Assembly: GCF_000258515.1 (NCBI RefSeq)
Contig: NZ_AJLF01000001.1
Coordinates: forward strand, 1 to 64,000
Direction of reading: 5' to 3'
Length of the DNA: 64,000 nucleotides
Source: Thermococcus zilligii AN1
Lineage (GTDB): Archaea > Methanobacteriota_B > Thermococci > Thermococcales > Thermococcaceae
Position 1 is the stretch's first letter. Each line of letters opens with the position of its first letter. The notes beneath the pieces were generated by a model. The model made no database searches. It had not been told where the DNA came from and saw only the letters and a program-made list of their open reading frames with translations. Below are positions 1-22,801 of the stretch, piece after piece. The position numbers and the translations under genes are program-made.

Positions 1-321
1 GCTTCCTCCGTATGTTTTTTGCCATTTTATGTTTCCTTCTTTGTCAAGCCTGAGAACCCAAACGTCCTCCTCACCAGCGCCGAAGCTGTAGGTATAGCCT
101 GCTACAATGATGTCACCGTTGGGTGCTACTGCAACCGCGTAAGCCACATCAAGGTCTTTTCCTCCGTAGGTTTTGAACCACTTGACGTTCCCGTCCTTGT
201 CCAGCCGAGCAACGAACGCGTCTTCTTCTCTTACCCCGGCGATGATTATGTCGCCGTTTTCCGCAAGGGCCACGGCACCAGCTACACCCCACCCATAAGT
301 CTTCGCCCAGTAGGACATCAT
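1..321 (-). CDS. beta-propeller repeat protein, partial (N-terminal part)
   Basis: The gene runs off the left edge of the window; about 107 residues are visible. They contain about two copies of a roughly 50-residue repeat with the core NGDIIVAG...DVWVLRLD...KWQKTYGG, the same repeat as in the proteins at 1562-4840 and 6088-8925. Each repeat is probably one blade of a propeller. The frame opens at two adjacent ATG codons (321 or 318) behind a good ribosome binding site (GGGGGTGAT). It therefore begins without a signal peptide, as the 6088-8925 protein does. A separate short frame carrying a signal peptide overlaps this start (318-425), so the protein may once have been secreted. It is the last visible gene of the minus-strand operon. 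The function of what lies beyond the window edge is unknown. Confidence 0.75.
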   Translation of the reverse strand, partial: MMSYWAKTYGWGVAGAVALAENGDIIIAGVREEDAFVARLDKDGNVKWFKTYGGKDLDVAYAVAVAPNGDIIVAGYTYSFGAGEEDVWVLRLDKEGNIKWQKTYGGS

Positions 322-446: not shown

Positions 447-1565
447 TCATTTCCACACCACCACCGTCACGTTGTCCTTCGTGACCGGGAGGGCCTCCTC
501 GATGAGCCTCCTGGCGATTTCCTCCGCATTTTTACCCCGCGAAGCTATCTCGATTATCCTGCCTTCATCCACGTAGTCATGCAGCCCATCAGAGCTGAGC
601 AGCAGAACGTCCCCTTTTTTGAGCCCCCACTCGTAGAGGTCAACACCGAAGTCAATGCCCAGGGCTTTCGTTATGATGTTCCTCATCGGGTGCCTCCGTG
701 CTTCATCCCCAGTTATCTCTCCCCTGTCAAGGAGCTCCTGGACGAGAGAGTGGTCCTTGGTCCTGGCGGCGATTTTGCCGTCCCTTATCAGGTGGGCCCT
801 GCTGTCGCCGGTGTTGGCCACTATGGCCTTTCCGTTCCTCACGAAGGCGGTAACCAGCGTCGTCCCCATGCCCGTCTTCTCACCGACGGCGTTCTCCTTT
901 ATCCTCCCGTGGGCGAGCTCGTGGGCCTTCCTGAGGAGCTCCCTGACCTCTTCATCGCCCATCCCCCTTCTGTACATCCCAAAGACTTCCCTGAGTGTAT
1001 CAACGGCCATTTGCGAGGCAACTTCGCCCGCGTTGTGGCCGCCGAGGCCGTCGGCAACCGCAAGGAGGTAGCCATCGGGGAGCTCCATGACGAGGAGGTT
1101 GTCCTCGTTGTTCTCCCTGTTGCCGACGTGACTTACCCCAAAGGCCCTACCCGCTTTTACCTCCACGGCATTTTCGGTTCCGGTCATGTCTTTACCTCCT
1201 TTTCTCATATAAACGTAAGCGCCTGCGCCTCCCAGTGCGAGAAGCGCAAGGGTTACCAGCAGGTGGGTCTTTGACCATTTTCCCGCGGGCAAGGAAGGGG
1301 AGCAGGGGGTGGTGCAGTTCTTACTCACGTCCATTCCTGTGACAGTGGCGGTCAGGTTCACAGGCGGGGAGTTGATGGTGAGCTTTCCGGGGAGGGATTC
1401 AAGCTCAACCGTGATGCCGGGTGGGAGGTTGGGGCTCATAGGGGTTCCCCCCGTATGAAACCCATTCACGTAAACCCCGGCTCCCCCGGAGGTTGCAACC
1501 TGAAGCTCCCGGGCTTCCACCTGGAGGAGGAAAAGAAAGACCAGAAACAGCGGAGTTTTCTTCAT
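447..1565 (-). CDS. membrane-anchored PP2C-type protein phosphatase
   Basis: This 372-residue protein removes phosphate from Ser/Thr and probably opposes the neighbouring kinases. The N-terminus is a signal peptide (about 1-19). Next come about 80 exported residues with a PEGA-like GVYVNG...GGTP motif, one TM segment (about 98-117), and a cytoplasmic PP2C domain (about 125-372). Metal-site and core motifs are present: NEDN, ADGLGGHNAGE, GMGTTL, NTGDSR, SSDGLHD and DNVTVVV. The start codon overlaps the stop of the kinase gene by four bases (ATGA), so the kinase and phosphatase are translationally coupled, a common arrangement for a writer/eraser pair. The enzyme assignment is secure; its substrates are inferred. 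Confidence 0.9.
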   Translation of the reverse strand: MKKTPLFLVFLFLLQVEARELQVATSGGAGVYVNGFHTGGTPMSPNLPPGITVELESLPGKLTINSPPVNLTATVTGMDVSKNCTTPCSPSLPAGKWSKTHLLVTLALLALGGAGAYVYMRKGGKDMTGTENAVEVKAGRAFGVSHVGNRENNEDNLLVMELPDGYLLAVADGLGGHNAGEVASQMAVDTLREVFGMYRRGMGDEEVRELLRKAHELAHGRIKENAVGEKTGMGTTLVTAFVRNGKAIVANTGDSRAHLIRDGKIAARTKDHSLVQELLDRGEITGDEARRHPMRNIITKALGIDFGVDLYEWGLKKGDVLLLSSDGLHDYVDEGRIIEIASRGKNAEEIARRLIEEALPVTKDNVTVVVWK

Positions 1566-4500
1566 TCTTCAACCTCCCTCTGCACCTTGTGGAGGAGTAC
1601 TTCGAGCTCGTCCAGCGTGCTCTTGCTTATCGGCACGCTCTCGCGCATCATGACTTCGAACTGGCCTATCGCGTTCTCAAGCTCCTCCCTGTGCTCCTTT
1701 GAGAATGCCTTCAAGTCCTCAAGCGTTTTAATTAGCTCGACCTTATCGTTGAGCTGAGCGAGGAGTAAAGCGTTCCTGCTCAGCTGTTCCACCAGCCGTC
1801 TGCGTAGCTTTCTGAGTTCTTTGCTGTCAGTGGTCAGGCTCATGGTTGTTTTTGTCTTCTCGATCTCCTCGGCGAGCCTGGCTTTCTCCTCCTCAAGCTT
1901 CCTGATGAGTTCAAGGTCTTTCAGGAACTCGTCGACGCTCTGATAGCGGTCTTCCTTTCTCTTCGCTAAGAGCTTCTCAAAGATTCCGTCGTACTTCGCC
2001 AGTTTACTGTCGAAGTGGCTTGGAGGAATGGGCTTAACGTCAGGGTTTATTACCTTGGCCACGACCGCGGCCGGGGAAGTCCCCTGATAGGGGAGCTCGC
2101 CGGTTAGGAGTTCGTAGAAGATGAGGCCGAGCTGGTAGATGTCCGTCCTCTGGTCGGTGTGGCCGTAAGTTTCCTCGTCCAGCTGTTCTGGGGCCGCGTA
2201 GAGAAGGGTTAATCCTCTGGTGGTCGTTGCCGTTGTGGAGGCCGCTCCGACCTTAGCCAGCCCCCAGTCGGTGATTTTCGGAGTTAAATCGCTCTTTATC
2301 AGGACGTTCTGGGGCTTCAAATCCCTGTGGAAGATACGCTTGCTGTGGGCGTGTTTCAATCCCTCGGCAATGCCCCTAACGAAGTGCAACGCCTTCTCCT
2401 CGTCAACAGGCTTCGGGTACTTTCCGAGGTCCCTGATGGTTTTCCCGTTGATCTTTACACCGTCCACGAACTCTATCTCGAGGTGTGGTAAAGGCTCGTC
2501 GAAGGCGTTGTAGAGTTTGACGATGTTCGGGTGGTCGAGCAAACTCCACGCCTTAGCCTCCTTGAGGAGGAACTTCCTGGCCTTTTCGTCAAGGTTTGGG
2601 ATTTTGAGGGCGACGATTTTGCCGTCATCTTTTCGTTTCACTTTGAATACTTTTGCGAAGCCGCCCTCGCCGAGGAATTCGAGGGGCTCGTACTTGTCCA
2701 AAAGCTCGGGCGGGAAGCCCGGAAACGCCGGAGGCTTCCCCGCCGGGGCAGGCGCCGGGGGCTTTTCTTTCTTCTCTGGTGCGGTTTTTCCTGCGCTTTC
2801 TGGTGAAGGTTTGGGCTTCCCACTCCCGGTTTTAGCAGCCACACCACCAATAAGGCGGAGAAGTGCACCGATAAGGCGGAAGAGTGCGATGCCGAGGAGT
2901 ATGAAGCCGAGGAGTATGAGGCCAAGGAATATGAGGCCGAGGAGGATGTCAGTTTTAGAGATTCCCCCCTCCGTTGACCTCCCAACGGTTTGGGTTTGTG
3001 AGTTCGTTACCTGGGATGAATTACTCGTGCTTGTGGATAAAGATGAACTTCCAGTAGTTGATGGCGAAGGTGAATTAGTCGTCACCCGGGATGAACTAGT
3101 CGCCTGAATTGGGGTTAGGCTCGCTGTAATGCTCGCCTCCCCTCCAGGAGTTACCGTTACGGTTTTCGTGAAGTCCTGGTAACCCTGCTTGACGATCTTA
3201 ACAGTGTGCTCCCCCGTCGGGAGCTTGTAATTCTCAATTGGCGTATCCCCAACGTAGGAGTCATCGATGAAAACTCTGGCCCCGCTCGGATCAGAATAAA
3301 CCGTCAAATAGCCATAGGGCGGCGTTGTTGATGTTATTAATGTTGCCGAAATCGCCTTGCTCTCCTCCGGACTGAGGGTTATTGTTGTCCTGTACTCCTG
3401 GTAACCATCCTTTATCAGTATTATCGAGTGCGTTCCCGGCGGAACTTGAATCGTTAGGGGCGTTTCCCCCGCATAAGAACCATCGAGGATGACTTTTGCC
3501 CCGGATGGGTTTGACTGAATCGTTAGGGTAGCAGGGGAATATTGGGTCTGAACTACGAGACTGGCCGGGAGCGGGTAAACGTTTGAGTCCTCAACTTGAG
3601 CATTGGAAACGTGGACTTCAGCGTTCGGGGATGTTATGATGGGGTTTGGAACATTCACTTTCGCGTCGGAATTTTTGGAAAAGTCAGGCAGGTTTCCGTC
3701 CGGAGGGAGGCGGAGAACCCAAGCATCCCACCCACCAGCGCCGAAGCTTGCAGTAACGCCTGCCACGATGATGTCACCGTTGGGTGCTACTGCAACCGCG
3801 TGAGCCTCATCATGACCGCTTCCCCCGTATGTTTTCTGCCATTTTATGTTTCCATCAGCGTCAAGCCTGAGAACCCAAACGAAGCTTGAAGTATAGCCTG
3901 CCACGATGATGTCCTCGTTATCTGCCAAAGCAACCGCGCGAGCCCAGCTCCCACCGTATGTTTTTTGCCATTTTATGTTTCCATCCTCGTCAAGCCTGAG
4001 AATCCAAACGTCAGCGTTAGAACCTACCCAATCTGTTAGCCCATAGTAGCCTGCTACGATGATGTCCCCGTTATCTGCCAAAGCAACTGCATAAACCCAA
4101 TCCCCGTGGCTTCCTCCGTATGTTTTTTGCCATTTTACGTTGCCGTTCTCGTCAAGTCTAAGAACCCAAACGTCCCCACCACCAGCACCGAAGCTCCAAG
4201 TATAACCAGCCACTATGATGTCCTCGTTATCTGCCAAAGCAACCGCGCGAGCCCAGCTCCCACCGTATGTTTTTTGCCATTTTATGTTTCCATTGGCATC
4301 AAGCCTGAGAACCCAAAAGTAATGCCCACTAGCGCCGAAGCTTTCAGTATAGCCTGCTACGATGATGTCCCCGTTATCTGCTAAAGCAACCGCGGAAGCC
4401 CTATCAGAACTGATTCCACCGTATGTTTTTTGCCATTTTATGTTTCCATTCTTGTCAAGTCTCAGAACCCAAACGTCCTCATAACCAGCGCCGAAGCTTG

Positions 4501-4840
4501 AAGTATGGCCTGCTACGATGATGTCCCCGTTATCTGCCAAAGCAACCGCGGAAGCCTCGTCATAATCGATTCCACCGTAGGTTTTTGCCCACGCCAGACT
4601 CCCGTCGGGGTTCAGCTTCATGACGAGGACATCCTTCTCACCAGCGCCGAAGCTTGCAGTACTGCCCACTGCAATAATGCCCCCGTCCGGGAGGACTTTA
4701 ACGTCGTTGATAAAATCGTCAGACTGCCCACCATAGCTCTTCGCCCAGTAGTTGGAGGCGCCTGCTGTAACTGCTGGAATCTGAACCGCCAAAAGCGAAA
4801 AGGCCAGGGTTAGGGCCAAAACCGTGGGGAGTTTCTTCAT
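1562..4840 (-). CDS. receptor-like Ser/Thr protein kinase: propeller-PEGA-TM-kinase
   Basis: The protein has 1092 residues, taking the ATG at 4840, which sits just after the AAA ATPase stop and behind GGGGGGT. The order is: signal peptide (1-26), seven propeller repeats of about 50 residues (about 28-385), a linker, two PEGA domains (about 437-500 and 510-572; YLTVYSDPSGARVFID type), a Ser/Thr-rich stalk, a TM segment (about 630-663), a Pro-rich linker, a protein kinase domain (about 717-975) and a helical tail. Kinase motifs are GEGGFAKV, VALK, HRDLKPQN, DWG (in place of DFG) and AAPEQ, so it should be active. The topology puts the sensor outside and the kinase inside. Repeats 4 and 6 begin identically, a sign of recent internal duplication. 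It is probably a sensor for the ESCRT-like operon; the ligand is unknown. Confidence 0.9.
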   Translation of the reverse strand: MKKLPTVLALTLAFSLLAVQIPAVTAGASNYWAKSYGGQSDDFINDVKVLPDGGIIAVGSTASFGAGEKDVLVMKLNPDGSLAWAKTYGGIDYDEASAVALADNGDIIVAGHTSSFGAGYEDVWVLRLDKNGNIKWQKTYGGISSDRASAVALADNGDIIVAGYTESFGASGHYFWVLRLDANGNIKWQKTYGGSWARAVALADNEDIIVAGYTWSFGAGGGDVWVLRLDENGNVKWQKTYGGSHGDWVYAVALADNGDIIVAGYYGLTDWVGSNADVWILRLDEDGNIKWQKTYGGSWARAVALADNEDIIVAGYTSSFVWVLRLDADGNIKWQKTYGGSGHDEAHAVAVAPNGDIIVAGVTASFGAGGWDAWVLRLPPDGNLPDFSKNSDAKVNVPNPIITSPNAEVHVSNAQVEDSNVYPLPASLVVQTQYSPATLTIQSNPSGAKVILDGSYAGETPLTIQVPPGTHSIILIKDGYQEYRTTITLSPEESKAISATLITSTTPPYGYLTVYSDPSGARVFIDDSYVGDTPIENYKLPTGEHTVKIVKQGYQDFTKTVTVTPGGEASITASLTPIQATSSSRVTTNSPSPSTTGSSSLSTSTSNSSQVTNSQTQTVGRSTEGGISKTDILLGLIFLGLILLGFILLGIALFRLIGALLRLIGGVAAKTGSGKPKPSPESAGKTAPEKKEKPPAPAPAGKPPAFPGFPPELLDKYEPLEFLGEGGFAKVFKVKRKDDGKIVALKIPNLDEKARKFLLKEAKAWSLLDHPNIVKLYNAFDEPLPHLEIEFVDGVKINGKTIRDLGKYPKPVDEEKALHFVRGIAEGLKHAHSKRIFHRDLKPQNVLIKSDLTPKITDWGLAKVGAASTTATTTRGLTLLYAAPEQLDEETYGHTDQRTDIYQLGLIFYELLTGELPYQGTSPAAVVAKVINPDVKPIPPSHFDSKLAKYDGIFEKLLAKRKEDRYQSVDEFLKDLELIRKLEEEKARLAEEIEKTKTTMSLTTDSKELRKLRRRLVEQLSRNALLLAQLNDKVELIKTLEDLKAFSKEHREELENAIGQFEVMMRESVPISKSTLDELEVLLHKVQREVEE
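3680..4770 (-). repeat. seven tandem ~150-bp propeller-encoding repeats
   Basis: Seven coding repeats of roughly 125-160 bp lie in the extracellular part of the kinase gene. The block around 3916-3990 is almost base-for-base the same as that around 4227-4300. The final repeat lacks the KWQKTYGG strand, while the protein's N-terminus supplies YWAKSYGG, as expected for a propeller closed by its first strand. Confidence 0.8.
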
Positions 4841-4844
4841 TCTC

Positions 4845-6044
4845 TTACCCCCCGAACTCCTCGGCCCACTTCTCATAGCGTTCTATATCCTTCCTCGTCA
4901 GCTGGGACTTTATTTTCTTGAAGGCCTCCTCAAAATCGCGCATCTCCAGCGGCCTCGTCCTCAGCGAGCGTTTCCCCAGCTCCTCAAAGGGAAGCTCGGC
5001 GAGCTTGTGCAGCTCAGGGTTCTCCTCGCGTACCATGTTCCATATCGCCCCCTGGCAGAGGTTCTTCAGGTCTCTCCCCGAGTATAGGCGCCTAACGCTC
5101 TCCTCCGCTATAGCATCGAGGTCGAGCTTCGAGATGTCCAGCCCCTGCGTGTTTATCCTGATTATCTCTTTTGTAGCCTTCTTGTCAGGCAGGGGGACGT
5201 AAATCCTCCTCGGGAAGCGCGAGAGAACGGCCTCGTCCAGGTCCCAGGGCGTGTTGGTTGCCGCCAGCGTGAGGACGAGCTTGTCGCTCTTCTTGTCCTG
5301 GAAGCCGTCCAGCTCGGTCAAAAGCGTGGCGAGCATTCTCCTACTTGCCTCGCTCTGCTCTTCGGAGCGCTTCGTTGTAAGTGCATCCGCCTCATCTATG
5401 AAGACTATGCTCGGTGACTCTTCCCTCGCCACCTCGTAGAGGGCCGAAATTATCTTCGAGCTCTCGCCGAAGTACTTGCTGAGGACGTTTGAGGCCTTGA
5501 CGTTGAAGAAGGTCGCGTTTAAACTTCCTGCCGCCGCCGAAGCGAGGAGCGTTTTTCCCGTCCCGGGCGGCCCGAAGAGGAGTACTCCCTTCCACGGCTG
5601 GATCGACTCGGGCCTCCGGAGGGCCGCTATGACAACCGTTTCCATTAGCAGTTTCTTGACTTCGTCCAGGCCGCCTATGTCGTCCCACTTGACTTTGGAC
5701 TTGGCGATGAGGTTGTTCCTGACGTAGGCCCTGAACTTCTCCTCCTCGCTCTCCTCTTCCTTCCCGTTCTCCGGTCTCGAAGAGCCTTCCTTCATTGGCT
5801 TGTTCCTGGTCTTCTGGAAGCGTCCGCTTTCTATGTCCTTTGCTAACGCCTCCCACTTCTTGGCCTTATCCAGGTAGCTCTCGCGGTTGAACTCGTCGTA
5901 GTTCGAGAGCTGTTTTAGAATCCTCGCGCATTCGAGAGCCTTCTTCTTTGCAACCTCCATGTCGCCTCTCTTGACTGCTTCCTCGTATTCCTTCTTCGCC
6001 TTCTTAAATGCACTCATCAACGGCCCGGAAAGGTCAACCGGCAT
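4845..6044 (-). CDS. Vps4/CdvC-like AAA ATPase with N-terminal MIT-like domain
   Basis: The protein has 399 residues. Residues about 5-80 form a Lys/Glu-rich set of helices spaced like an MIT domain (AFKKAKKEYEEAVKRGD...), followed by a charged linker. A single AAA domain (about 118-330) carries WDDIGGL, GPPGTGKT (Walker A, about 158), IVFIDEADAL (Walker B, about 213), SEASRR, AATNTPWDLD and RFPRRIYVPLPD. The C-terminus ends in a helix with YEKWAEEFGG. This is the layout and motif set of Vps4/CdvC, which disassembles ESCRT-III polymers, and differs from Cdc48 (two AAA domains) and the proteasomal ATPases. The two ESCRT-III-like genes lie upstream in the same operon. The presumed role is ATP-driven remodelling of those filaments. 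Confidence 0.85.
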   Translation of the reverse strand: MPVDLSGPLMSAFKKAKKEYEEAVKRGDMEVAKKKALECARILKQLSNYDEFNRESYLDKAKKWEALAKDIESGRFQKTRNKPMKEGSSRPENGKEEESEEEKFRAYVRNNLIAKSKVKWDDIGGLDEVKKLLMETVVIAALRRPESIQPWKGVLLFGPPGTGKTLLASAAAGSLNATFFNVKASNVLSKYFGESSKIISALYEVAREESPSIVFIDEADALTTKRSEEQSEASRRMLATLLTELDGFQDKKSDKLVLTLAATNTPWDLDEAVLSRFPRRIYVPLPDKKATKEIIRINTQGLDISKLDLDAIAEESVRRLYSGRDLKNLCQGAIWNMVREENPELHKLAELPFEELGKRSLRTRPLEMRDFEEAFKKIKSQLTRKDIERYEKWAEEFGG

Positions 6045-6087
6045 TTTCCCCGCCCCTTCCGTTCGGGATACACAAATTTGATTTTCC

Positions 6088-8925
6088 TCACTTGATAAGT
6101 TTTCTACTTATCACGACAACAAAGAAGGCCATCATGAAGGCGCCGATGATGGCTTCGGCCGCGGCCGCGAGCCTGTATGCCCCCGAGGGCACTATGTCCC
6201 CGTAGCTGCCGGTGGTGAAGGTAATCACGCTGAAGTAAAGGGCCTCCATCAGGGAGCCGGCCGTTCCTCCGGCCAGAAAGACCAGCGCGAAGACGAGTAT
6301 AATGGCTACGGTTGTGGTCAGAACCCTTGAGGCGCTCTCTCCATAGTTAGAGGTCAGCCGGTAGAGGAGGTTGGCAAAGTAGCGGAGGTTCCCTTCGAGG
6401 GCTATGAGCCAGCGCTTTCCGCTCCTCCCCGTTAGGGGCACGAACTCAGCGAGCTCGGCCGGTTTGGGATGGCGGTGGGCTATCCTCTGGAGCTTCCCCC
6501 TAACGCGCCACTCGCCTACGGCGTACCACGACGAGCGGTCGTAGAGGCCCTTCTCGCGGAACAGAAGCTTTAGTGAGAGGTAAACGGAGAGGGCCTCCCT
6601 GTAAGCTTCCACTGCCCCCTCAAAGTCTCCCTCCTTTGAGAGCCTGTCGCCCTCCTTCTCCTCGGCGATGATTACATCTATGCGAGTAGACTCAAGCCCT
6701 CTGACCCCGGAGAGGTCAGCCCCGTAAAGCTTTGCCCCCCTCAGGTCGGCGCCCATGAGGTAGGCTCCGTTCAGGTTGGCCCCGTAAAGCTCCGCCCCCC
6801 GGAGGTCTGCCCTCGCAAGGTTCGCGTTTTCAAGGTTCGCCAGCGAGAGGTTTGCCCCGATCAGGGACGCTCCGCTGAGGTCTGCATTCCTCAGGTCGGC
6901 GTGAGTGAAGTTGGCTCTCTTAGCTTTGGCCCCGCTTAGGTTCGCCTCGTAGAGCAAGGCCCAGTCCAGGTTTGCCTCTGACAGGTTGGCGTCGCTTAGA
7001 TCTGCCCTGACCAGGTTGGCCCCCCTTAGGTCTGCGCTTTCGAGGCTGGCCTCGCTCAGGTAGGCCTCCTCAAGGTCTTCGCCTTCCAGCTTGGCTCCCC
7101 GGAAGTTCTTTCCGCCCTCGGGCAGGTGAAATATGCAGAGGCCGTTCTCAACGGCCTCGTGGGGGCATTCCTTGATGGATTTTTGATACTCGTAGGCGCA
7201 CCTCATGGCCCCGCCCTTTTCTATCAGTTCTATTTCGGTGTATTTGTGGGCGAGTTGGGGTGGGAATTCGGGCGGGAGCTGGAGTCCTGCGGGGGCGGGC
7301 GTGGGTGTTACTGGAGTGGCAGGCGTTTGGAGAAGTGCAGTCTTCTCGGCGACGACTTTGACGGGGATTATTTTCTCAGCCTCAAGCTCGATGTCATTTA
7401 TCTTCGTATGGATTTTAATTTTGAAGTCGAAACTGCCGGCGTACTTTGGCTTCACTGTCAGAGTCCTGGTTGCTCTCTTCCCCTTCTCCAGCTTCGGGAA
7501 CTCGAGTTTGGCTTCCTCAAGTTCGAGAAAGTCGTTTTCAGAGAAGTCGAGGACTGCCTTAAGCGAGTCTGCGATGTTGTTGGTGAGAGTGAGCTTTAGA
7601 GGAGCCTCAACTCCTTCGGTTAAAGCGGGCAAAGTGACGACAAGAGCCGAGGAAAGCTGACGCTCAAGTCTCTCCTCATCTTCTGAATACTGCGTTTCAA
7701 CGCTTGGTGTGATTGTGTTCACACTGGCGTCTGAGTCCCTCACTTCAACCTCCGCCTCCGAGGAAATCTTACAGTTCGTGTTGTGAACTTTGGCATCGCT
7801 ATTGCTCGCCTGAGCTTTTGAATCATGACAGAAGTCACAGCCAGGCAGGTTTCCGTCCGAAGGAAGGCGAAGAATCCAAACTTCATACTCATCTGCGCCG
7901 AAGCTTTTGGTATAGCCTGCGACAATAATGTCCCCGTTAGGCGCTAAAGCAACCGCGGAAGCCCTATCAGAATCACTCCCTCCGTATGTTTTTTGCCATT
8001 TTATGTTTCCATCCTCGTCAAGCCTGAGAACCCAAACGTCAGCACTACCAGCGCCAAAGCTTTCAGTATAGCCTGCGACGATGATGTCCCCGTTGGGCGC
8101 TACTGCAACCGCGTGAGCCTCATCATTCTCGTTCCCTCCGTATGTTTTTTGCCATTTTATGTTTCCATTGGCGTCAAGCCTGAGAACCCAAACAGCCCGC
8201 CCACCAGTGCCGAAGCTTTTGGTATAGCCAGCGACGATGATGTCCCCGTTAGGCGCCAAAGCAACCGCGCGAGCCTTTTCATGATCGCTCCTACCGTATG
8301 TCTTCTGCCATTTTATGTTTCCATTTTCATCAAGCCTGAGAACCCAAACGTCAGTGTGAGGACCAAACTTGTCTGTTGCCCCATAGTAGCCTGCGACAAT
8401 AATGTCCCCGTTAGGCGCTAAAGCAACCGCACGAGCTCCGTCCTTCCTCATTCCCCCATATGTCTTCTGCCATTTTACGTTTCCATTGGCGTCAAGCCTG
8501 AGAACCCAAACATCCTTCTCACCAGTGCCGAAGCTTTTGGTATAACCTGCGATAATAATGTCACCATTAGGTGTTAAAGCAACTGCGCGAACTCCATCCT
8601 CTTTGCTTCCCCCATATGTCTTCTGCCATTTTATGTTTCCATCCTCGTCAAGCCTGAGAACCCAAACGTCAGCACTACCAGCGCCGAAGCTGTAGGTATA
8701 GCCTGCGACAATAATGTCCCCGTTTGGCGCTACTGCAACCGCACGAGCCTCATCCCACTCGAGTCCTCCGTAGGTTTTGAACCACTTGGCGTTTCCTTCT
8801 CTGTCTAAGCGGGCAACGAAGGCGTCCCCTCCTCTTTCCCCGGCGACGATTATGTCGCCGTTTTCCGCAAGGGCCACGGCATTAGCTACACCCACCCCAT
8901 AAGTCTTCGCCCAGTAGGACACCAC
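6088..8925 (-). CDS. propeller + pentapeptide repeat + two-TM channel-like protein
   Basis: The protein has 945 residues and starts at GTG 8925 behind GGGGGTGGT. It has no signal peptide. Seven propeller repeats fill about 1-360. An Ig-like beta region follows (about 420-520), then a Pro-rich linker and a stretch (LPPEFPPQLA...KYTE.ELI.KGG) shared with the kinase at 8963-10720. The similarity stops in the kinase glycine loop and is replaced by pentapeptide repeats (about 605-742; ADLRGANL type). The end is a two-TM pore module (about 862-942) with TFTTGSYGDI, close to the potassium-channel signature but with SYG in place of GYG. Without an export signal the propeller would be cytoplasmic. A gated ion pore is inferred; conductance is untested. 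Confidence 0.8.
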   Translation of the reverse strand: MVSYWAKTYGVGVANAVALAENGDIIVAGERGGDAFVARLDREGNAKWFKTYGGLEWDEARAVAVAPNGDIIVAGYTYSFGAGSADVWVLRLDEDGNIKWQKTYGGSKEDGVRAVALTPNGDIIIAGYTKSFGTGEKDVWVLRLDANGNVKWQKTYGGMRKDGARAVALAPNGDIIVAGYYGATDKFGPHTDVWVLRLDENGNIKWQKTYGRSDHEKARAVALAPNGDIIVAGYTKSFGTGGRAVWVLRLDANGNIKWQKTYGGNENDEAHAVAVAPNGDIIVAGYTESFGAGSADVWVLRLDEDGNIKWQKTYGGSDSDRASAVALAPNGDIIVAGYTKSFGADEYEVWILRLPSDGNLPGCDFCHDSKAQASNSDAKVHNTNCKISSEAEVEVRDSDASVNTITPSVETQYSEDEERLERQLSSALVVTLPALTEGVEAPLKLTLTNNIADSLKAVLDFSENDFLELEEAKLEFPKLEKGKRATRTLTVKPKYAGSFDFKIKIHTKINDIELEAEKIIPVKVVAEKTALLQTPATPVTPTPAPAGLQLPPEFPPQLAHKYTEIELIEKGGAMRCAYEYQKSIKECPHEAVENGLCIFHLPEGGKNFRGAKLEGEDLEEAYLSEASLESADLRGANLVRADLSDANLSEANLDWALLYEANLSGAKAKRANFTHADLRNADLSGASLIGANLSLANLENANLARADLRGAELYGANLNGAYLMGADLRGAKLYGADLSGVRGLESTRIDVIIAEEKEGDRLSKEGDFEGAVEAYREALSVYLSLKLLFREKGLYDRSSWYAVGEWRVRGKLQRIAHRHPKPAELAEFVPLTGRSGKRWLIALEGNLRYFANLLYRLTSNYGESASRVLTTTVAIILVFALVFLAGGTAGSLMEALYFSVITFTTGSYGDIVPSGAYRLAAAAEAIIGAFMMAFFVVVISRKLIK
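7203..7300 (-). other. probable recombination junction with the neighbouring kinase gene
   Basis: Bases 7215-7300 closely match 10066-10140, which encode the Pro-rich linker and first strand of the kinase domain at 8963-10720. The match ends in the kinase glycine-rich loop: KGGFANVY in the kinase, KGGAMRCAY here. This marks where a kinase domain was exchanged for the pentapeptide/channel module, or the reverse. Confidence 0.65.
7850..8910 (-). repeat. seven tandem ~150-bp propeller-encoding repeats
   Basis: Seven coding repeats are very similar in DNA sequence to those at 3680-4770 and 1-320. They include a variant blade (YYG.TD..G..TDVW) at about 8340-8400, found also at about 4010-4050 in the kinase. 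The shared variant and the high DNA identity point to gene conversion among the three genes. Confidence 0.75.
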
Positions 8926-8962
8926 ACCACCCCCAATCTGCCCGGGATGGGCCTTTTATGAG

Positions 8963-10720
8963 CTACTTGCCCGACCTCAAAACCTCCCCCTCAATCCTGA
9001 GGACCAACGCCCTCACCATCTCCTCGACTTCGGCGCTTATCGGAATCCCTTCCCTGAGGAGGGACTCAACCTGTTCTATGGCGTTGAGCAAGTCGTCGAG
9101 TTGCCCCACCGTGTAGAACTTTAGCTCCTCCAAAGCCGCCAAAAGCTCGGCCTTGTCGTTTAGCTTGGCACTTAGGATGGCTATCTTTACCGTCTTCCTC
9201 ACGCTCTCTGCCTTCAAGCGCTCGAACTCCTCCCGCGAGCGGCTCTTTCTCATTGCCAAACTCGTCTTCCTGAGCTCCTCTTTTTCCCTCTCCAGCTCCT
9301 CGAGGGATTCCAGGGCCGACAAAAACTCATCAACGCTCTGATAACGGTCCTCCTTCCTCTTCGCTAAGAGCTTCTCAAAGATGCTATCGAACTTCTTGAG
9401 GTCGGGCTTAATCCCCGATACCGGTTCGGGCTTTGAGTGAAGGATTTTGCCGACGAGTGCCCCCGGTGAAGTCGCCTTATACGGGAGTTCTCCGGTTAAA
9501 AGCTCGTAGAAGATGAGGCCGAGCTGGTAGATGTCCGTCCTGTGGTCCGGGACGCCAAAGGCCGCCTCGTCAAGCTGTTCTGGGGCCGCATAAAGCGGGG
9601 AGTACCCGTAGTGCTGGCTCAGGGAACTCCTCGCGCTTATCTTTGCCAGCCCCCAGTCGGTGATTTTGGGCGTCAAATCACTTTTCAAGAGAATGTTCAA
9701 CGGCTTGAGGTCGAGGTGGTAAATCCCCTTCGAGTGGGCGTGCTTTAACCCCTCGGCAATGCCTTCGATGAGTTTTAGGGCAGTTTTCTCGTCAACGGGT
9801 TTTGGATACTTGTCGAGGTCTCTGGCGAGCTTCCCGTCAACTTCCGCCCCCTCAACGAACTCCATTTCAAGGTACGGGACGGGGAGAATGTCAGCCCGGT
9901 AAAGCCTTACAATGTTCTTGTGGTTTAAATTATACCACGCCGCAACCTCCTTGATGAAGAGCGAACTCGTCCTCTCGTCTATGTGCGGTATTTTGAGGGC
10001 GACGATTTTGCCGTCATCCCTGCGTTTGGCTTTGTAAACGTTAGCAAAGCCGCCTTTTCCTATCAGTTCCACTTCGGTGTATTTGTAAGCCAGTTGGGGT
10101 GGGAATTCGGGCGGGAGCTGGAGTCCCGCAGGGGCGGGCGCTGAGGTAGGGGGTGTTTGTGGAGTTGATGTCCTCTCGGTGACCTCGATGGGGATTACCT
10201 TCCTGTCCCCAGACTTAACGTCATTTCCAGTTTTGGCAATTTCCATGAGCTCCATCAGCTCCGACGCGGCGTTTCTAAGTTTATTAACTACCTCCTGACC
10301 GAGGGGGATTCTCTGGAGGACTTGGTTTCCTTTCTCCGGCCTGAGGACTATGCTACCCCATTCCAGGTTGATGTTCCAGCGGTGGACCCCGCCTGAGGGG
10401 TTTTTCAGGGAGGCAGAGAAGCCGTTGAACTCCAGGGTCGATGGTGCGAAGTTGACGTTGAGGTTCTCTATTTCGCCGTATTCATTTATGAGGCCCGAGA
10501 TCAACCTCTGAACCTCACCGTCACTCATCAGCTGCAAAACGGCTCTGCCCAGCTTTTCCTCGAATTCCTTATCGGACATGGCCTTGTTCTGAAGGGTTTT
10601 TCCTCCAGGACCGGTTAGCGCTACCGGGAAAGGGAGACCTTCAAAGTAGACGTAAGGAATGTCTCTAAACTGTATCGTTACACTTTTCGGCGGAACGTCC
10701 CACAGTGTTGCATCCTTCAT
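8963..10720 (-). CDS. soluble Ser/Thr protein kinase (non-RD)
   Basis: The protein has 585 residues from ATG 10720, preceded by GGGGGTTAAGGAG; an upstream TTG would add 26 residues and is less likely. There is no signal peptide or TM segment. Residues 1-200 form a domain I do not recognise, followed by a Pro/Thr-rich linker. The kinase domain (about 212-465) has GKGGFANVY, VALK, DWG and AAPEQ. The catalytic loop reads YHLDLKP, so the Arg of HRD is Leu; such non-RD kinases usually do not need activation-loop phosphorylation. A helical tail (about 475-585) resembles that of the receptor kinase. The gene lies 82 bases after the second ESCRT-III-like gene. Targets could include the filament proteins or the AAA ATPase; that is inference. 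Confidence 0.85.
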   Translation of the reverse strand: MKDATLWDVPPKSVTIQFRDIPYVYFEGLPFPVALTGPGGKTLQNKAMSDKEFEEKLGRAVLQLMSDGEVQRLISGLINEYGEIENLNVNFAPSTLEFNGFSASLKNPSGGVHRWNINLEWGSIVLRPEKGNQVLQRIPLGQEVVNKLRNAASELMELMEIAKTGNDVKSGDRKVIPIEVTERTSTPQTPPTSAPAPAGLQLPPEFPPQLAYKYTEVELIGKGGFANVYKAKRRDDGKIVALKIPHIDERTSSLFIKEVAAWYNLNHKNIVRLYRADILPVPYLEMEFVEGAEVDGKLARDLDKYPKPVDEKTALKLIEGIAEGLKHAHSKGIYHLDLKPLNILLKSDLTPKITDWGLAKISARSSLSQHYGYSPLYAAPEQLDEAAFGVPDHRTDIYQLGLIFYELLTGELPYKATSPGALVGKILHSKPEPVSGIKPDLKKFDSIFEKLLAKRKEDRYQSVDEFLSALESLEELEREKEELRKTSLAMRKSRSREEFERLKAESVRKTVKIAILSAKLNDKAELLAALEELKFYTVGQLDDLLNAIEQVESLLREGIPISAEVEEMVRALVLRIEGEVLRSGK

Positions 10721-10801
10721 CTCCTTAACCCCCAAACCTATTATGTTAAGTAAAACCGAAAGTTTTGCTCGACGCGGATAGGCAATGGCGAAGAACAAAA
10801 A

Positions 10802-11413
10802 TCAAAGCTCCTCGGGCCACTCCTTTTTCTCCTCCTTCTCTTCACCGGTTATCTTCTCGGCCGCTGTTTCGGGCTCGAGTTCACCCTCTTTAACCGCGTG
10901 GATGGTCTTCATTATCTCGGCCAGCTCTTCGTCCCCTTCAAAGTCAGCACCAGTGCTCAGCGTCTGGTCGGTTATGCCGAGCATCTGGTCGAGGTTCTCT
11001 TTGAAGTTCTGCGCATCCAGTTGTATGTTCGCCAGGTTCTTTTCAAGCTCCTCCGGCGACATGTTGCGGAGCATCTTCCAGGTCGGTGTGCCCTTCAGAA
11101 TGGCCTCGTTTTCCTTGATTATGGCCAGGTTGTTTATGAGCATGAGCTGTTTGTTGAGCTGCATGTGCGTTGCCTGGAGGTTCTTCTTGCGCTGGTTAAG
11201 GGTCTTTATCTTCGTCGCTATGGTGAGCTCTTCGCTCTTGCTCCTCGCGCTCTTTGCCCTCTCAAAGAGCGCCGCTATCTCGCGGTCTATGCTGGTTATC
11301 TCATTCTCAATCTTCTGGATCTGGACTTCGAGCTTGATTTTGCTCTCGTTGAGCTGGCTTAGCGGTATATCAAGCGGGTTCTTCTTCCCAAAAAAGCGGG
11401 AGAAGAAGGCCAT
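10802..11413 (-). CDS. ESCRT-III/Snf7-like coiled-coil protein, paralogue 2
   Basis: The protein has 203 residues and begins MAFFSRFFGKKN, a short amphipathic basic N-terminus of the kind that binds membranes. A long, charged helical hairpin follows (about 18-110), then a shorter helical region and a strongly acidic C-terminal tail (EEKEEKKEWPEEL). Length, basic-to-acidic polarity and helical pattern fit the ESCRT-III/CdvB fold, and the MIT-AAA partner is in the operon. The start overlaps the previous gene's stop by one base (TAATG). I cannot point to a confident MIT-interacting motif. The main alternative is another membrane-binding coiled-coil family of the PspA/Vipp1 type, which is itself part of the wider superfamily. 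Confidence 0.6.
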   Translation of the reverse strand: MAFFSRFFGKKNPLDIPLSQLNESKIKLEVQIQKIENEITSIDREIAALFERAKSARSKSEELTIATKIKTLNQRKKNLQATHMQLNKQLMLINNLAIIKENEAILKGTPTWKMLRNMSPEELEKNLANIQLDAQNFKENLDQMLGITDQTLSTGADFEGDEELAEIMKTIHAVKEGELEPETAAEKITGEEKEEKKEWPEEL

Positions 11414-12006
11414 TACTCTTCCTCCTCAAGATCTTTGTCGAGTGAGACGACCTTTTCTACTGCCTCCTCCACATCGGCTTCTCCCGCCTCGACCTGGGCC
11501 CATGCCTTCATGAGCTCCCTCTCCGTCTGATCCTCGGTCTCCTCGAACTCAGCGACCTCCATCTCGAAGACCCTGTTGAGGTTGCTTACAATTTCGTCAA
11601 ACTCCTTGCCGTCGAGGTTCACCTTTATGAGGGCCTGCTCAAGCTGCTCCGGCTCGACGTTGGCGAGCTTCTCCCACAGACCTGTCTTCCTCAGCTCCTG
11701 TTCGTACTTCTTGACTATGATGAGGTTCTTGATGAGAGTGTACTGCTTCTGTGCCGTCGTGAAGTCCTTGAGCTTGAGTTTCTGCTCCATGTCGAGGCCC
11801 TTTATCTCCTGCGCGAGCATCTTCTTCTTGAGAATGTCAGCGCCGATGCCCTCCTGGAAGAGCTGCTTTTTCTTCTTCTCAATCTGGTCGATGTCCTTCT
11901 TGAGGCGCTCAAGCCTGTTCCTCAGCCTTATCTCCTCGGCCTGGAGCTCCCTCAGGGAGAGCTTTTCTATAAAGTTCTTCCTTCCAAACATGTCGCGGAT
12001 TCCCAT
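11413..12006 (-). CDS. ESCRT-III/Snf7-like coiled-coil protein, paralogue 1
   Basis: The protein has 197 residues from ATG 12006, with GGAGGTG six bases upstream. It begins MGIRDMFGRKNF, like its paralogue. A Lys/Arg/Glu-rich helical hairpin covers about 15-105, a middle segment (about 115-150) contains LWEKLANVEPEQLEQAL, aligned with the paralogue's TWKMLRNMSPEELEKNL, and the C-terminus is acidic (about 155-197, ending DLEEEE). Two paralogues side by side with opposite-charge ends suggest a copolymer, as for Snf7/Vps24-type pairs. The family assignment rests on architecture and context, not on diagnostic residues. Confidence 0.6.
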   Translation of the reverse strand: MGIRDMFGRKNFIEKLSLRELQAEEIRLRNRLERLKKDIDQIEKKKKQLFQEGIGADILKKKMLAQEIKGLDMEQKLKLKDFTTAQKQYTLIKNLIIVKKYEQELRKTGLWEKLANVEPEQLEQALIKVNLDGKEFDEIVSNLNRVFEMEVAEFEETEDQTERELMKAWAQVEAGEADVEEAVEKVVSLDKDLEEEE

Positions 12007-12051
12007 CTTCCGCACCTCCAGTGAGCGTTATCCGGGCAAACAATGAAAGGT

Positions 12052-13791
12052 TCACATGAAATCTTTCTTTACGAGGACGTAGCCAACACCCTCGATGAAC
12101 CTGGTGGAGTAGCCCTTTTCCTTCGAGAGCTCCTGAAAAGCCCTCTTAACGAGATCCTCGTCGAAGTGTTCAACGGCCTCCTCCAGCCTGACGTAGCCCT
12201 TCTCATTTATCCTCTCCTCGACGAAGTCCTTGATCCTGGCTATCTTCTCCTTGTCGAACTCTAGCCTCAGGAAGGGCTCGAAGGCTTTAGCATACTCGTC
12301 GTGCGGGTTGTAGATCAGCTCGCCGCTTTCGAGGTCGAGCAGGGCGAGCGAAACGTTCTCGGATATGAAGTTCCTGTGAAAGTCCGCTGAGTTCACGTAG
12401 TTCCCTATGCGCTTCTCAAAGCCGGTCGGGGAGGCAACGAGGAGGACTATCCTCCCCTCCTTGGCCTCATCCCTGGCATCAACGAGGAGGGCGTTTATGT
12501 CGGCCAATTCAAGAGGGTCTGTGTCGAAGCCGACTTCAGCGTATCTCTCAGGCCTGCCGTAGAAGAGCGCCCTTACCGTCAGGAACTCCTTCTTTCCGAG
12601 GAGCTTCTTCTCCCTGAGGTAAACCTCGACGAGCCTGTTGTCCGGGATGTTCTTGAGGTCTCTCTCCGGGAGCTTTCTGGCGTAGGCACTCCTGTCGAAG
12701 GTGCCCCTTTCCTCAACCTTCTCCACCTTGAAGCTCCTTCCGAGGAGTTTCACCTCCTCCCCGAACTTGCCCTTCATTCTGCCGATGAAGTTCATCTCGA
12801 GTATCTTCGCCTCGTCCCTCCTGACGAAGCGCGAGCCCTTCTCGACCTTTCCTGCCAGCTCCATGACCTCTCTGATGCGCTTTGACACCTCGTCCTCCTT
12901 CTGCTGGAGTTCAAGCTCCTTCCGCTTGAGTTCCATCTCCTTCTGCTGGAGCTCCATCATCTTTGAATCAAGGGTCGAGCGCATCCTCTCGAGCTCCTCC
13001 CTCAGCTTGGCCTTCTCCTCGTCGTTCTCAAGCTTCTCTTCCAATTCTTTGATCTGTTTTTCGAGTTCTTCTTTTTCCCTTCTGAGTCTCTCAACCTCCT
13101 CGGCCTTTGATGTCCTTATCTCTTCCATGAGGCCCTCATAGCGTTTCCTTATACCCTCTATCTGCTTCTGGTAGAGCTTTTCTATGCTTTCCTCCTCCTT
13201 CTGAACCTCGCTCAGGAAGTCCCTGAGCCAGTCGAAGCGCGACGTGGCCTCAGCCAGGGCATCGTTCACTTTGCCCTTGTAGGAGTCCCACTTGCTTTTG
13301 AGGAAGTGTCTGAGGGAGAGCTTTATCTCCGGATCCGCCAGTGCTTCCTCTATCCACTTGTCAACGCCGTGGTAGTACTCCCGCAGGAGGGCGAGGACGT
13401 TGGTATCGCGGTGCATTACCCTCGTCATAATGTCCTCCTTGGTGTATATCTCGAAGACGTTGTAGCGAAGAACCCTCTCCACGGCCTCTATCTCCTTGTC
13501 GAGGTATCTCCTGCTGGCTGGAAGGTACGTCTCCCCGCTCTTCCAGAAGCTCCACGCGAGTATTGCTAAAGCTCCCTCAAATTTGCTCCTGAAGTGCGTG
13601 TCCAGATCCCTGAGGAATTCGCCGCACTCCCCCTCAAGATAGAGGTCGTAGCTGTCCAGAATCCGGTTCCAGAGCTCCACCCTCTTATCGAAGCTCTCCA
13701 CCTGTATGTCGAGCCCCTGCTTCAGGACCCTTTCCGCCGGTTTCAGGAGCTCCTTAACGCAGTCGGTTTTTCCTTCGTTGAATAGCCCCAT
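12052..13791 (-). CDS. long coiled-coil protein with C-terminal winged-helix-like segment
   Basis: The protein has 579 residues from ATG 13791, placed directly behind the upstream gene's stop with GGTGG as the binding site. The N-terminal 190 residues are helical and rich in aromatic residues. A very long coiled coil follows (about 190-330; heptads such as ELEKQIKELEEKLEN). A globular region (about 340-505) and a C-terminal segment (about 520-579; KGYVRLEEAVEHFDEDLVKRAFQEL...GVGYVLVKK) with the helix-helix-wing look of a winged helix complete it. I do not recognise the family. Its place just upstream of the two ESCRT-III-like genes suggests a scaffold or nucleator, comparable in role to the winged-helix ESCRT-II subunits or CdvA; this is inference. 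Confidence 0.6.
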   Translation of the reverse strand: MGLFNEGKTDCVKELLKPAERVLKQGLDIQVESFDKRVELWNRILDSYDLYLEGECGEFLRDLDTHFRSKFEGALAILAWSFWKSGETYLPASRRYLDKEIEAVERVLRYNVFEIYTKEDIMTRVMHRDTNVLALLREYYHGVDKWIEEALADPEIKLSLRHFLKSKWDSYKGKVNDALAEATSRFDWLRDFLSEVQKEEESIEKLYQKQIEGIRKRYEGLMEEIRTSKAEEVERLRREKEELEKQIKELEEKLENDEEKAKLREELERMRSTLDSKMMELQQKEMELKRKELELQQKEDEVSKRIREVMELAGKVEKGSRFVRRDEAKILEMNFIGRMKGKFGEEVKLLGRSFKVEKVEERGTFDRSAYARKLPERDLKNIPDNRLVEVYLREKKLLGKKEFLTVRALFYGRPERYAEVGFDTDPLELADINALLVDARDEAKEGRIVLLVASPTGFEKRIGNYVNSADFHRNFISENVSLALLDLESGELIYNPHDEYAKAFEPFLRLEFDKEKIARIKDFVEERINEKGYVRLEEAVEHFDEDLVKRAFQELSKEKGYSTRFIEGVGYVLVKKDFM

Positions 13792-13792
13792 C

Positions 13793-14308
13793 TCAACCAC
13801 CCGCAAACAGCTTTAGCTCCTCGTCAATCCTCTCGGCCAGAAAATCAACGGCCTCACCAAAACCCTCAATCTCAAAGACCACTTGCGAGCTGCCATCACC
13901 CCGGGTGATGACCTTTATCGTTGCCCTGCCCTTTCTCGTGTAGACGCTGAAGCTCTTTGCTATCGGGTCAGAGCCCGTGGGGCTGGCGTTAAGCTTCGAC
14001 AGAAGGTACTCGATAAACCGCTCCACGACCTTTTTTTCCTCGGGAAGGGTGTATTCCAGAACCCTCTTCTTGCTCTCAACGGCTTTTTTGAGGGGCCTCG
14101 CCTCGTAGACCTCGATCTTCTCCCCGATATCTCCTTCAAGTCTGGAGAAAAGCTCTTCAAGGAATTCGGTCAGACTATCGGCTTCGATGTAGACCACAGT
14201 CCCCCGGGGCTTCTTGATGACGGCTCTGCTGGACCACTTGTCAAGGAGGTAGTCAATGCGCTTTCTTTCGGCATCGGTCTCATAGCTGACAAAGATTATG
14301 TATCCCAT
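13793..14308 (-). CDS. protein of unknown function, first gene of the ESCRT-like operon
   Basis: The protein has 171 residues from ATG 14308. The TATA box at 14341-14350 would start transcription near 14318, giving a leader of about ten bases. Nothing suggests a signal peptide or TM segment. The sequence has alternating beta and helical stretches (YIIFVSYETDAERKRI at the start; FEIEGFGEAVDFLAERI near the end) and may be a small alpha/beta fold. I do not recognise a family. As the leading gene of the operon it may be a regulator or adaptor. Confidence 0.6.
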   Translation of the reverse strand: MGYIIFVSYETDAERKRIDYLLDKWSSRAVIKKPRGTVVYIEADSLTEFLEELFSRLEGDIGEKIEVYEARPLKKAVESKKRVLEYTLPEEKKVVERFIEYLLSKLNASPTGSDPIAKSFSVYTRKGRATIKVITRGDGSSQVVFEIEGFGEAVDFLAERIDEELKLFAGG

Positions 14309-14340
14309 ATTCACCACTCGCTCTTATTTGGAGCTTTGTC

Positions 14341-14350
14341 CTATATAAAC
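14341..14350 (-). promoter_or_regulatory. TATA box of the ESCRT-like operon
   Basis: On the minus strand this reads GTTTATATAG, about 27 bases upstream of the expected start point near 14318 and 33 bases before the ATG at 14308. No comparably clear promoter is seen before the downstream genes except possibly in the gap at 10721-10801. Confidence 0.65.
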
Positions 14351-17702: not shown

Positions 17703-19208
<1,506 letters not shown>

Positions 19209-19226
19209 TTAACAAAAACATGTAAA
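19209..19226. promoter_or_regulatory. purine-type dyad before the formate dehydrogenase gene
   Basis: TTAAC-N8-GTAAA lies directly after the guaB stop and upstream of the TATA-like element (CTTTTTATTTTT, about 19242-19253) of the formate dehydrogenase gene. It is a weaker match than those of purC and purS but has the same spacing. Confidence 0.4.
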
Positions 19227-19281
19227 TTGGCCCCGGAAAAACTTTTTATTTTTGCACTTCTTTTGTCAATCGGGTGATGGC

Positions 19282-21282
19282 GTGAGCGGGCTCAGGAGTG
19301 TTGTGTGCCCCTACTGCGGCTTTGGCTGTAAGTTGCTCGTAGACCCAAAAACCCTGAGAGTAAAACCCCACCACGGCGAGCCGAACAGGGGAAAGCTCTG
19401 CCCGAAAGGCCTCCACGCGGCTGAGGTGGTCACCTCAAAGGACAGGCTCAAGAGGCCCCTTAAGAGGGTCGGCTCCGCGATGGTTCCGATAAGCTGGGGC
19501 AGGGCTATTGAGGAGATAGCGAACAGACTCCTCGAAATCCGCGAGCTCTACGGCCCGGACGCGGTCGCTTTCATAGCTTCCTCAAAGGTCAGCAACGAGG
19601 AGAACTACCTCCTCCAGAAGATAGCCCGCCTATTTGGGACTAACAACATCGACAACTGTGCTCGCTTATGCCACGAGGCTTCTGTTCACGCCCTAAAGCT
19701 GGCCGTTGGGACAGGCGCTCAAACCAACCCCTACGAAGACCTCGAGGGCTTTAACGCGATACTCATCTGGGGCTACAACCCAGCGGAGACTCACCCGGTT
19801 GTCATGGATTATATCCTGAGGGCAAAGCGGAAGGGGGCAAAGTTAATCGTCGTTGACGTCAGGGAGACCAGGACTATGGCTCTTGCCGACTACAAGCTCA
19901 TTATAAGGCCCGGAACCGACATAACCCTCGCCAACGCCATGATGCACGTGGTAATCCGGGAAGAGCTCTACAACGAGGACTTCGTCCGCTCCAGGACGAG
20001 GGGTTTCTCAGAGGTGAAGATGACTGTCAGGAAGTACACACCGGAGTACGCTGAGAGGGTAACCGGAATTCCGGCAGAGACCATAAGGGAAGCCGCGAGG
20101 GCCTTCGCCTTGGCTGGAAGCGGCGCGATAATGTGGGGGATGGGCCTTACACAGCACGTCTCCGGGGTTGAGAACGTCCTGGCCATTATAGACCTCGCCT
20201 TGCTGCTCGGCTACATTGGCGAGCGCGGTGGCCTCTACCCAATGCGAGGCCAGAACAACGTGCAGGGGGCGGCATACATGGGCGCGCTGAGCGAGTTCCT
20301 GCCAGGTTACGTTCCGCTGACAGATCGGCGCTTCAGGAAGCGCGTCGCCTCTATCTGGGGCGTTGAGGATCTTCCGACGGAGAGGGGGCTTTATCTGACG
20401 GAGCTCTGGGATGAGGTGGAGGAGGGCAACCTGAGGGCGCTCTACATCGTCGGCGAGAATCCAGCGGTTAGCGAGGCTGATTTCACACGGGTTAGAGAAG
20501 CCCTCAGAAAGCTCGACCTCCTCGTAGTTCAGGACATCTTCCCGACGAGAACGGCCCGCTACGCCCACTACCTCCTGCCGGCAGCGGCCTTCTGCGAGAA
20601 GAGCGGGAGCTACATGAACAGCGAGAGGAGAATCCAGTGGAGCGAAAAGGCCTGTGAACCCCACGCCGACTCAAAACCCGACTGGGAGGTTCTGACGATG
20701 CTCGGAAGGGCACTTGGCCTGCCAGGTTTCAACTACTCGAGCGTTGAGGAAGTAACGGCGGAATACTTCAGGCTCTTCCCGGAGCTTGAGGAAAGGACTG
20801 TAGAAGAGCTGAAGAACCCGGACGGAATTTTCCTGCCGAGGAAGAGGCTCCACACCTGGGAGTTCGCAACACCCGACGGAAAGGCGAGGCTTATAGCGGT
20901 TGAGCAGATATCGCCCTGGGAGACGCCCGATGAGGAATACCCCTTAGTTCTCACCACGGTGAGGCTGATAAGCCACTACAACACCGGTGAAATGACGCTC
21001 AGGAGCCCCTCACTTGCCAAGCTGGCTGGAGAACCGGAGGCGCTGATAAGCGAAAGGGACGCGGATAAGCTTGGGATCGCCGATGGGGACTGGGTGGAGA
21101 TAGAGACGAGGCGCGGAAGGATAAGGATGCGCGCGAAGGTTGGCGGTGTCCCCCAGGGAGTTGTTGCGGTCCCCTTCCACTTCAAGGCCAACAGGCTCAC
21201 CGGCTCGGCCCTCAACAAGGCGGGAACGCCGGAGTTCAAGTATTCGGCCTGCAGGGTGAGGAAAGTTCCGGAAGGCCGTTGA
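19282..21282 (+). CDS. fdhA: formate dehydrogenase alpha subunit, molybdopterin/tungstopterin type
   Basis: The 666-residue protein starts at GTG 19282, eight bases after GGTGA. It has an N-terminal [4Fe-4S] site (CPYCGFGC...LCPKG), the molybdopterin-binding domains and a C-terminal dinucleotide-binding domain (about 560-666). The catalytic position, Sec in bacterial FdhF, is Cys in CARLCHEASV (about residue 130). It interconverts formate and CO2; in Thermococcales the metal is often tungsten. No FdhB, hydrogenase or formate-transporter gene is beside it. It lies between guaB and purF with a purine-type dyad in front, which suggests that it makes formate for PurT and PurP. Related oxidoreductases cannot be fully excluded. 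Confidence 0.85.
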   Translation: MSGLRSVVCPYCGFGCKLLVDPKTLRVKPHHGEPNRGKLCPKGLHAAEVVTSKDRLKRPLKRVGSAMVPISWGRAIEEIANRLLEIRELYGPDAVAFIASSKVSNEENYLLQKIARLFGTNNIDNCARLCHEASVHALKLAVGTGAQTNPYEDLEGFNAILIWGYNPAETHPVVMDYILRAKRKGAKLIVVDVRETRTMALADYKLIIRPGTDITLANAMMHVVIREELYNEDFVRSRTRGFSEVKMTVRKYTPEYAERVTGIPAETIREAARAFALAGSGAIMWGMGLTQHVSGVENVLAIIDLALLLGYIGERGGLYPMRGQNNVQGAAYMGALSEFLPGYVPLTDRRFRKRVASIWGVEDLPTERGLYLTELWDEVEEGNLRALYIVGENPAVSEADFTRVREALRKLDLLVVQDIFPTRTARYAHYLLPAAAFCEKSGSYMNSERRIQWSEKACEPHADSKPDWEVLTMLGRALGLPGFNYSSVEEVTAEYFRLFPELEERTVEELKNPDGIFLPRKRLHTWEFATPDGKARLIAVEQISPWETPDEEYPLVLTTVRLISHYNTGEMTLRSPSLAKLAGEPEALISERDADKLGIADGDWVEIETRRGRIRMRAKVGGVPQGVVAVPFHFKANRLTGSALNKAGTPEFKYSACRVRKVPEGR

Positions 21283-21301
21283 TTACAGCTCAGGCTTCAC
21301 G

Positions 21302-22645: not shown

Positions 22646-22659
22646 CGTCCCACCGTCCT

Positions 22660-22677
22660 TTGACGTTTACGTGCTTA
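22660..22677. promoter_or_regulatory. candidate purine-regulon dyad at the purF promoter
   Basis: TTGAC-N8-GCTTA overlaps the minus-strand TATA element (TTTATAAGC) of purF, a position at which a bound protein would block transcription. Confidence 0.5.
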
Positions 22678-22754: not shown

Positions 22755-22801
22755 AAAATCCTTAAAAACCCAAAAAATTTTACATAAAAATGGTGATGCC
22801 C

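Follow-up and report, generated by a model that had tools for sequence, protein, structure and literature searches.

The closest described relatives of the locus considered here are the Main-clade ESCRT systems of euryarchaea, Thermococcales included, which according to the survey of Makarova (2024; PMC10936438) comprise Vps4, ESCRT-III, arCOG09748, arCOG08177, STK and STP. That survey infers a key role for phosphorylation in Main-clade systems, describes arCOG08177 proteins as inactive Cas2-like plus TBP-fold domains, assigns a winged-helix fold to arCOG09748 proteins and includes a model of the arCOG09748 protein from Palaeococcus pacificus. A 2021 review (PMC10117752) had placed Thermococcales among the organisms without ESCRT-III. 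The preliminary description of the present DNA suspected that genome surveys had already noted the arrangement, and the 2024 survey does describe the system.

The window, by which we mean the whole stretch of 64,000 nucleotides from Thermococcus zilligii AN1 that was analysed, carries the ESCRT operon at positions 447-14317 of the minus strand (Table 1). Nine genes lie head to tail, overlapping or separated by 43 bp at most, and are transcribed in the order 171-residue protein, 584-residue protein, ESCRT-III paralogue B (E3B), paralogue A (E3A), soluble kinase, 945-residue propeller/pentapeptide/channel protein, Vps4, membrane kinase and PP2C. This is a real ESCRT operon of the kind already described, and like Main-clade loci it contains a membrane STK and an STP. 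A TATA-like TTTATATA precedes the first start codon by approximately 35-40 bp, and the likely start of the membrane kinase is near position 4840. All genes named in the preliminary description were found where it placed them, on the minus strand. It drew the operon too short, for this continues downstream through a second membrane kinase and PP2C, and it did not count the kinase, phosphatase and channel genes in the same system. The host does carry CetZ, at 58436-59536 (Tubulin E=2e-30, CetZ_C E=1e-14). An Rfam scan of the window gave no matches. The window starts at base 1 of the contig, whose end falls in a repetitive propeller gene of the ESCRT island; genes beyond this point may therefore be missing from the assembly.

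Table 1. Features of the ESCRT operon and its borders in the window
Feature	Position	Strand	Characteristics or basis
Truncated beta-propeller sensor gene, 5' part	1..321	minus	3' of the PP2C gene; cut by contig end
PP2C-type phosphatase	447..1565	minus	N-terminal extracytoplasmic segment, one TM (102-120)
Membrane Ser/Thr kinase	1562..4876	minus	Signal peptide, beta-propeller (delta-60), two PEGA, TM 648-666, cytosolic kinase
Vps4 AAA ATPase, predicted three-helix MIT-like N-terminus + Vps4_C	4845..6044	minus	Pfam, AF2, Foldseek
945-aa fusion: beta-propeller, Ig-like, kinase-domain stub, pentapeptide-repeat 2-TM ion channel	6088..8925	minus	
Soluble Ser/Thr kinase, 611 aa	8963..10798	minus	Pkinase E=8e-43; no TM segment
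ESCRT-III paralogue A (E3A)	10802..11413	minus	phmmer CHMP3, family Snf7 matches, AF2 model and Foldseek
ESCRT-III paralogue B (E3B)	11413..12006	minus	Homology to E3A
584-aa protein, arCOG09748-like	12052..13806	minus	Helical N-domain, coiled coil, central domain, winged-helix-like C-terminus
171-aa protein, arCOG08177-like, first operon gene	13793..14308	minus	Size, position and order compared with PMC10936438
TATA-box-like TTTATATA	14342..14349	minus	Putative, from reading of the sequence

E3A and E3B are paralogues (E=9e-18, and E=7e-17 between profiles). Across 12 related loci the two are kept at 66-88% identity, E3B alone at 76-88%, a degree of preservation that marks them as real genes. 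In E3A a basic N-terminal helix is followed by an alpha1/alpha2 hairpin, short helices and a C-terminal acidic helix. These are hallmarks of ESCRT-III. The AlphaFold model predicts alpha1 at residues 18-54 and alpha2 at 59-101 (pLDDT approximately 88-97), with the short helices extending as far as residue 189. In a Foldseek comparison of E3A with the PDB, ranks 1-7 and 9 are taken by CdvB2 filaments and CHMP3, CdvB and Asgard ESCRT-IIIB come next, an argument from ranking rather than from E-values, all of which exceed 0.05. The tail forms a conserved acidic amphipathic helix with Asp161, Leu164, Ile167 and Ile171 invariant and, judged by eye, resembles MIM1 without its arginine.

Pfam Snf7 (PF03357) is matched over almost the whole length by five of 20 E3A family members, with E-values in close orthologues from 2.3e-4 to 4.8e-3, scores that fall short of the curated cut-off. 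Neither of the copies in the window matches Snf7 below E=1. A Snf7 search of the whole genome was also negative, although the method is insensitive, a Sulfolobus control genome likewise missing the cut-off. The PDB profile search with E3B returned a single weak match, S. islandicus CdvB at E=0.65, whilst that with E3A alone gave weak coiled-coil noise. Phage sequences searched for ESCRT-III gave no match. The noise and the failure to reach curated Snf7 cut-offs might suggest that the two proteins form a coiled-coil family without relation to ESCRT-III and that the AAA protein next to them is an ordinary one. We regard this as extremely improbable, given that no Pfam family gives the members a lower E-value than Snf7, that human CHMP3 is the sole phmmer match of E3A in the PDB (E=0.008-0.05), that of the 18 PDB folds ranked highest 14 are ESCRT-III chains and that the genes accompany a Vps4_C ATPase in an operon of fixed composition. 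Assignment of the pair to ESCRT-III, as had been proposed for these two neighbours of about 200 residues, is supported by sequence, fold prediction and gene context.

The ATPase has a single AAA domain (E=2e-40) and a Vps4_C domain that scores 36.1 bits against a Pfam cut-off of 21.3. Its N-terminus is predicted to form a three-helix MIT-like bundle (helices 6-26, 29-49 and 54-72; pLDDT approximately 74-90), the first 72 residues corresponding to the size of an MIT domain. Only these helices were used from the AlphaFold model of the full protein, for which the alignment was too shallow in the AAA part (mean pLDDT 48.5). The best Foldseek matches of the model are katanin, Vps4 and spastin, with the AAA part of low confidence, and Pfam MIT (PF04212) did not match the N-termini of ten Vps4 orthologues. 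The earlier reading of a single-AAA ATPase with an MIT-like N-terminus and Vps4 features agrees with these data, and the models of E3A and of the ATPase N-terminus, rather than lacking them, contain the ESCRT-III core and the three-helix bundle respectively.

The first two proteins of the operon agree with arCOG08177 and arCOG09748 in size, architecture and order, and we treat them as probable counterparts. The 171-residue protein, encoded by the first gene in nearly all related loci, has no Pfam or PDB sequence match. The 584-residue protein is conserved as the second gene, and its C-terminus gives only weak HTH_DeoR and Ist1 matches. PDB profile searches with the two families retrieved nothing, or apolipoprotein-type coiled coils only. 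An orthologue of the PP2C in a plasmid-borne locus is annotated as protein phosphatase 2C. In the 945-residue protein a kinase domain breaks off soon after its start, at about residue 573, and the channel follows directly. In eight related loci the channel has a gene of its own, encoding 372-380 residues, and the fusion is absent from the relatives examined; it could be real or could reflect an assembly or sequence error. The selectivity filter reads TTGSYGD in the fusion as opposed to TTVGYGD in the eight relatives, and because of this alteration channel function is doubtful.

E3A is present in 39 of the phylum's 115 genomes, and in 34 of the 84 rated good. A core order of arCOG08177-like, arCOG09748-like, E3B, E3A, kinase(s), Vps4, (kinase) and PP2C is found repeatedly in Thermococcaceae. 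Almost all loci have kinases within the operon, and most of those read to a sufficient distance also have PP2C. Two architectures occur. All 13 loci of the compact one have the same gene order: DUF302, arCOG08177-like, arCOG09748-like, E3B, E3A, STK, Vps4, PP2C, E3C and a CopB-type ATPase. The expanded one, to which the window belongs, is rich in sensors and has several kinases, propeller and PEGA sensor domains and, in many cases, a gene for a pentapeptide K+ channel. In a Vps4 tree the compact and expanded rows are strongly clustered (none of 500 shuffles as low). Two further expanded islands (L075 and L077) encode very large sensors of up to 2149 residues with propeller and PEGA-related repeats. 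A metagenome-assembled genome labelled Archaeoglobus has a locus (L069) nearly like that of a Thermococci one (L071), and mis-binning is probable. In another genome (G060, locus L097) a single 641-residue ORF, either a decayed remnant or a natural fusion, joins arCOG09748-like and E3A sequence, and an operon-type Vps4 was not found in that genome.

E3C, a third ESCRT-III paralogue annotated as hypothetical (for example L033:9441-10007), is found in 30 of the 115 genomes. It matches Snf7 at E=2.9e-4 and the E3A profile at P=2e-4, compared to 0.11-0.85 for 20 shuffled controls. In compact loci it lies between PP2C and CopB, in expanded ones beside a second Vps4, which in several genomes is paired with it, approximately 61% identical to the first and some 8-22 kb away. 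Neither E3C nor a second Vps4 was found in the genome of the window, which may be an assembly gap since the contig ends inside the island.

A complete compact operon with three ESCRT-III genes occupies positions 17914-26443 of a circular plasmid of 49,106 bp in T. peptonophilus (NZ_CP014751.1, L079), amongst arsenite and heavy-metal resistance genes. The fast-evolving 584-residue family is 90-99% identical between genera whose IMPDH is only 83-88% identical. With IMPDH as the single marker, a Mantel test shows no correlation between the identities of the two proteins among compact loci (r=0.18, P=0.15), whereas among expanded loci there is one (r=0.58, P=0.006). These comparisons indicate that the compact form moves between genera by horizontal transfer.

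Does the system divide cells? Related CdvB and CdvC divide Sulfolobales cells (PMC10936438), and CetZ is encoded in the same window, so that a Cdv-like abscission step performed or assisted together with FtsZ/CetZ might be envisaged. However E3A is missing from approximately two-thirds of the phylum's genomes, which makes the system dispensable rather than a general division machine; the compact form spreads by horizontal transfer and is plasmid-borne in one case; and within the locus no CdvA-like protein appears among the Pfam and NCBIfam matches of the operon. A division role is in our view distinctly unlikely.

The preliminary description guessed at extracellular vesicles. Thermococcus cells do bleb vesicles, and those of Sulfolobus require ESCRT-III and Vps4 (PMC10117752). 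We place on the same side that a homologue of ArvA was looked for in Thermococcus and not found. Against vesicle formation are the patchy distribution of E3A, the existence of archaea that form vesicles without ESCRT (noted in PMC10936438) and unpublished work on T. kodakarensis, quoted in PMC10117752 and weak as negative evidence, in which vesicles were unaffected whichever of three Vps4 homologues was disrupted. We judge this explanation unlikely.

The ATPase gene next to E3C encodes a CPH motif and a His/Met-rich N-terminus, which we take to place it in the CopB-type (P1B-3) pump class. It adjoins E3C in all 13 compact loci, across two groups in which the 584-residue protein is only 66-68% identical. 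The CopB family occurs in 42 genomes, mostly unlinked to ESCRT, a distribution that weakens a copper link as a functional claim; the linkage may instead reflect a shared island. The genome of the window is without the CopB of compact loci.

The patchy, partly mobile distribution, the K+-channel gene found in many loci and kinase domains with matches to PADLOC models, MAD6 and PD-T4-6 among them, would also suit a module directed against viruses or mobile elements, its sensor kinases triggering membrane remodelling or channel opening upon infection. Yet the PADLOC matches are generic kinase-domain ones that do not add up to a defence system, the surroundings of compact loci are metal-resistance genes and the flanks examined showed no defence genes. 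Such a module is very unlikely.

Considering the genes, their homologies and predicted folds, the conserved order and the distribution observed, we think it probable that the locus, an expanded form of the Main-clade ESCRT, serves kinase-gated remodelling or repair of the envelope under stress, as an accessory to FtsZ/CetZ division and not a replacement for it. The membrane and soluble Ser/Thr kinases, through propeller, PEGA and Ig sensor domains, would read the state of the envelope and phosphorylate the arCOG09748- and arCOG08177-like adaptors, ESCRT-III or both, with PP2C reversing phosphorylation and so resetting the system. E3A and E3B may co-polymerise on the inner face of the membrane and remodel it, whilst the MIT-like bundle of Vps4 would bind ESCRT-III C-terminal helices so that the polymer is remodelled or stripped, and recycled. 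The putative stress role is drawn by association, from the compact sister form, which in each of its 13 loci has DUF302 and the CopB-type ATPase as neighbours and which occurs on a metal-resistance plasmid; the copper association belongs to that architecture and not to the expanded one of the window.

A broader proposal, which we advance tentatively and as somewhat less than probable, is that Thermococcaceae possess a horizontally mobile, kinase/phosphatase-gated ESCRT cassette with an accessory role in envelope stress. Its compact form, fixed between DUF302 and the CopB-type copper ATPase, would travel with metal-resistance plasmids, and in its expanded form the same core would be coupled to arrays of sensor kinases and a K+ channel. 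If this is true, ESCRT is part of a mobile stress-resistance gene pool and reaches beyond housekeeping. Plasmid carriage and transfer across genera amount to a natural gain and loss experiment, and tractable Thermococcus with and without the locus offer a direct test of non-division ESCRT in archaea. Contrary to the 2021 review (PMC10117752), about one-third of the phylum's sampled genomes have ESCRT-III, nearly always with Vps4 and with kinases and phosphatase in one operon.

The two architectures, the mobile compact form and the metal neighbourhood are details that we have not found described in the literature; ion channels, pentapeptides, metals, plasmids and horizontal transfer do not come up for such loci in the main text of PMC10936438. 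PspA/Vipp1 belongs to the same ESCRT-III superfamily and acts in membrane repair (literature), but has no Vps4 partner and is not among the 50 best fold matches listed for E3A. Some genomes, Pyrococcus-like and certain Thermococcus by presumptive genus name, carry a solo Vps4-like AAA protein with profile E-values of approximately 1e-103 to 1e-114. The operon Vps4 reaches approximately 1e-240, the solo proteins being far more distant, and genomes with only a solo copy lack E3A. Crenarchaeal CdvABC similarly unites ESCRT-III paralogues and Vps4 in one system, and its CdvB2 filaments are the best fold match; the locus in the window differs in a winged-helix protein separate from ESCRT-III, in kinases and phosphatase, and in sporadic presence. 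Closest of all is the Main-clade ESCRT of PMC10936438, which has the same set of Vps4, ESCRT-III, arCOG09748-like and arCOG08177-like proteins, STK and STP, and to which the window adds the propeller-channel fusion and two kinases.
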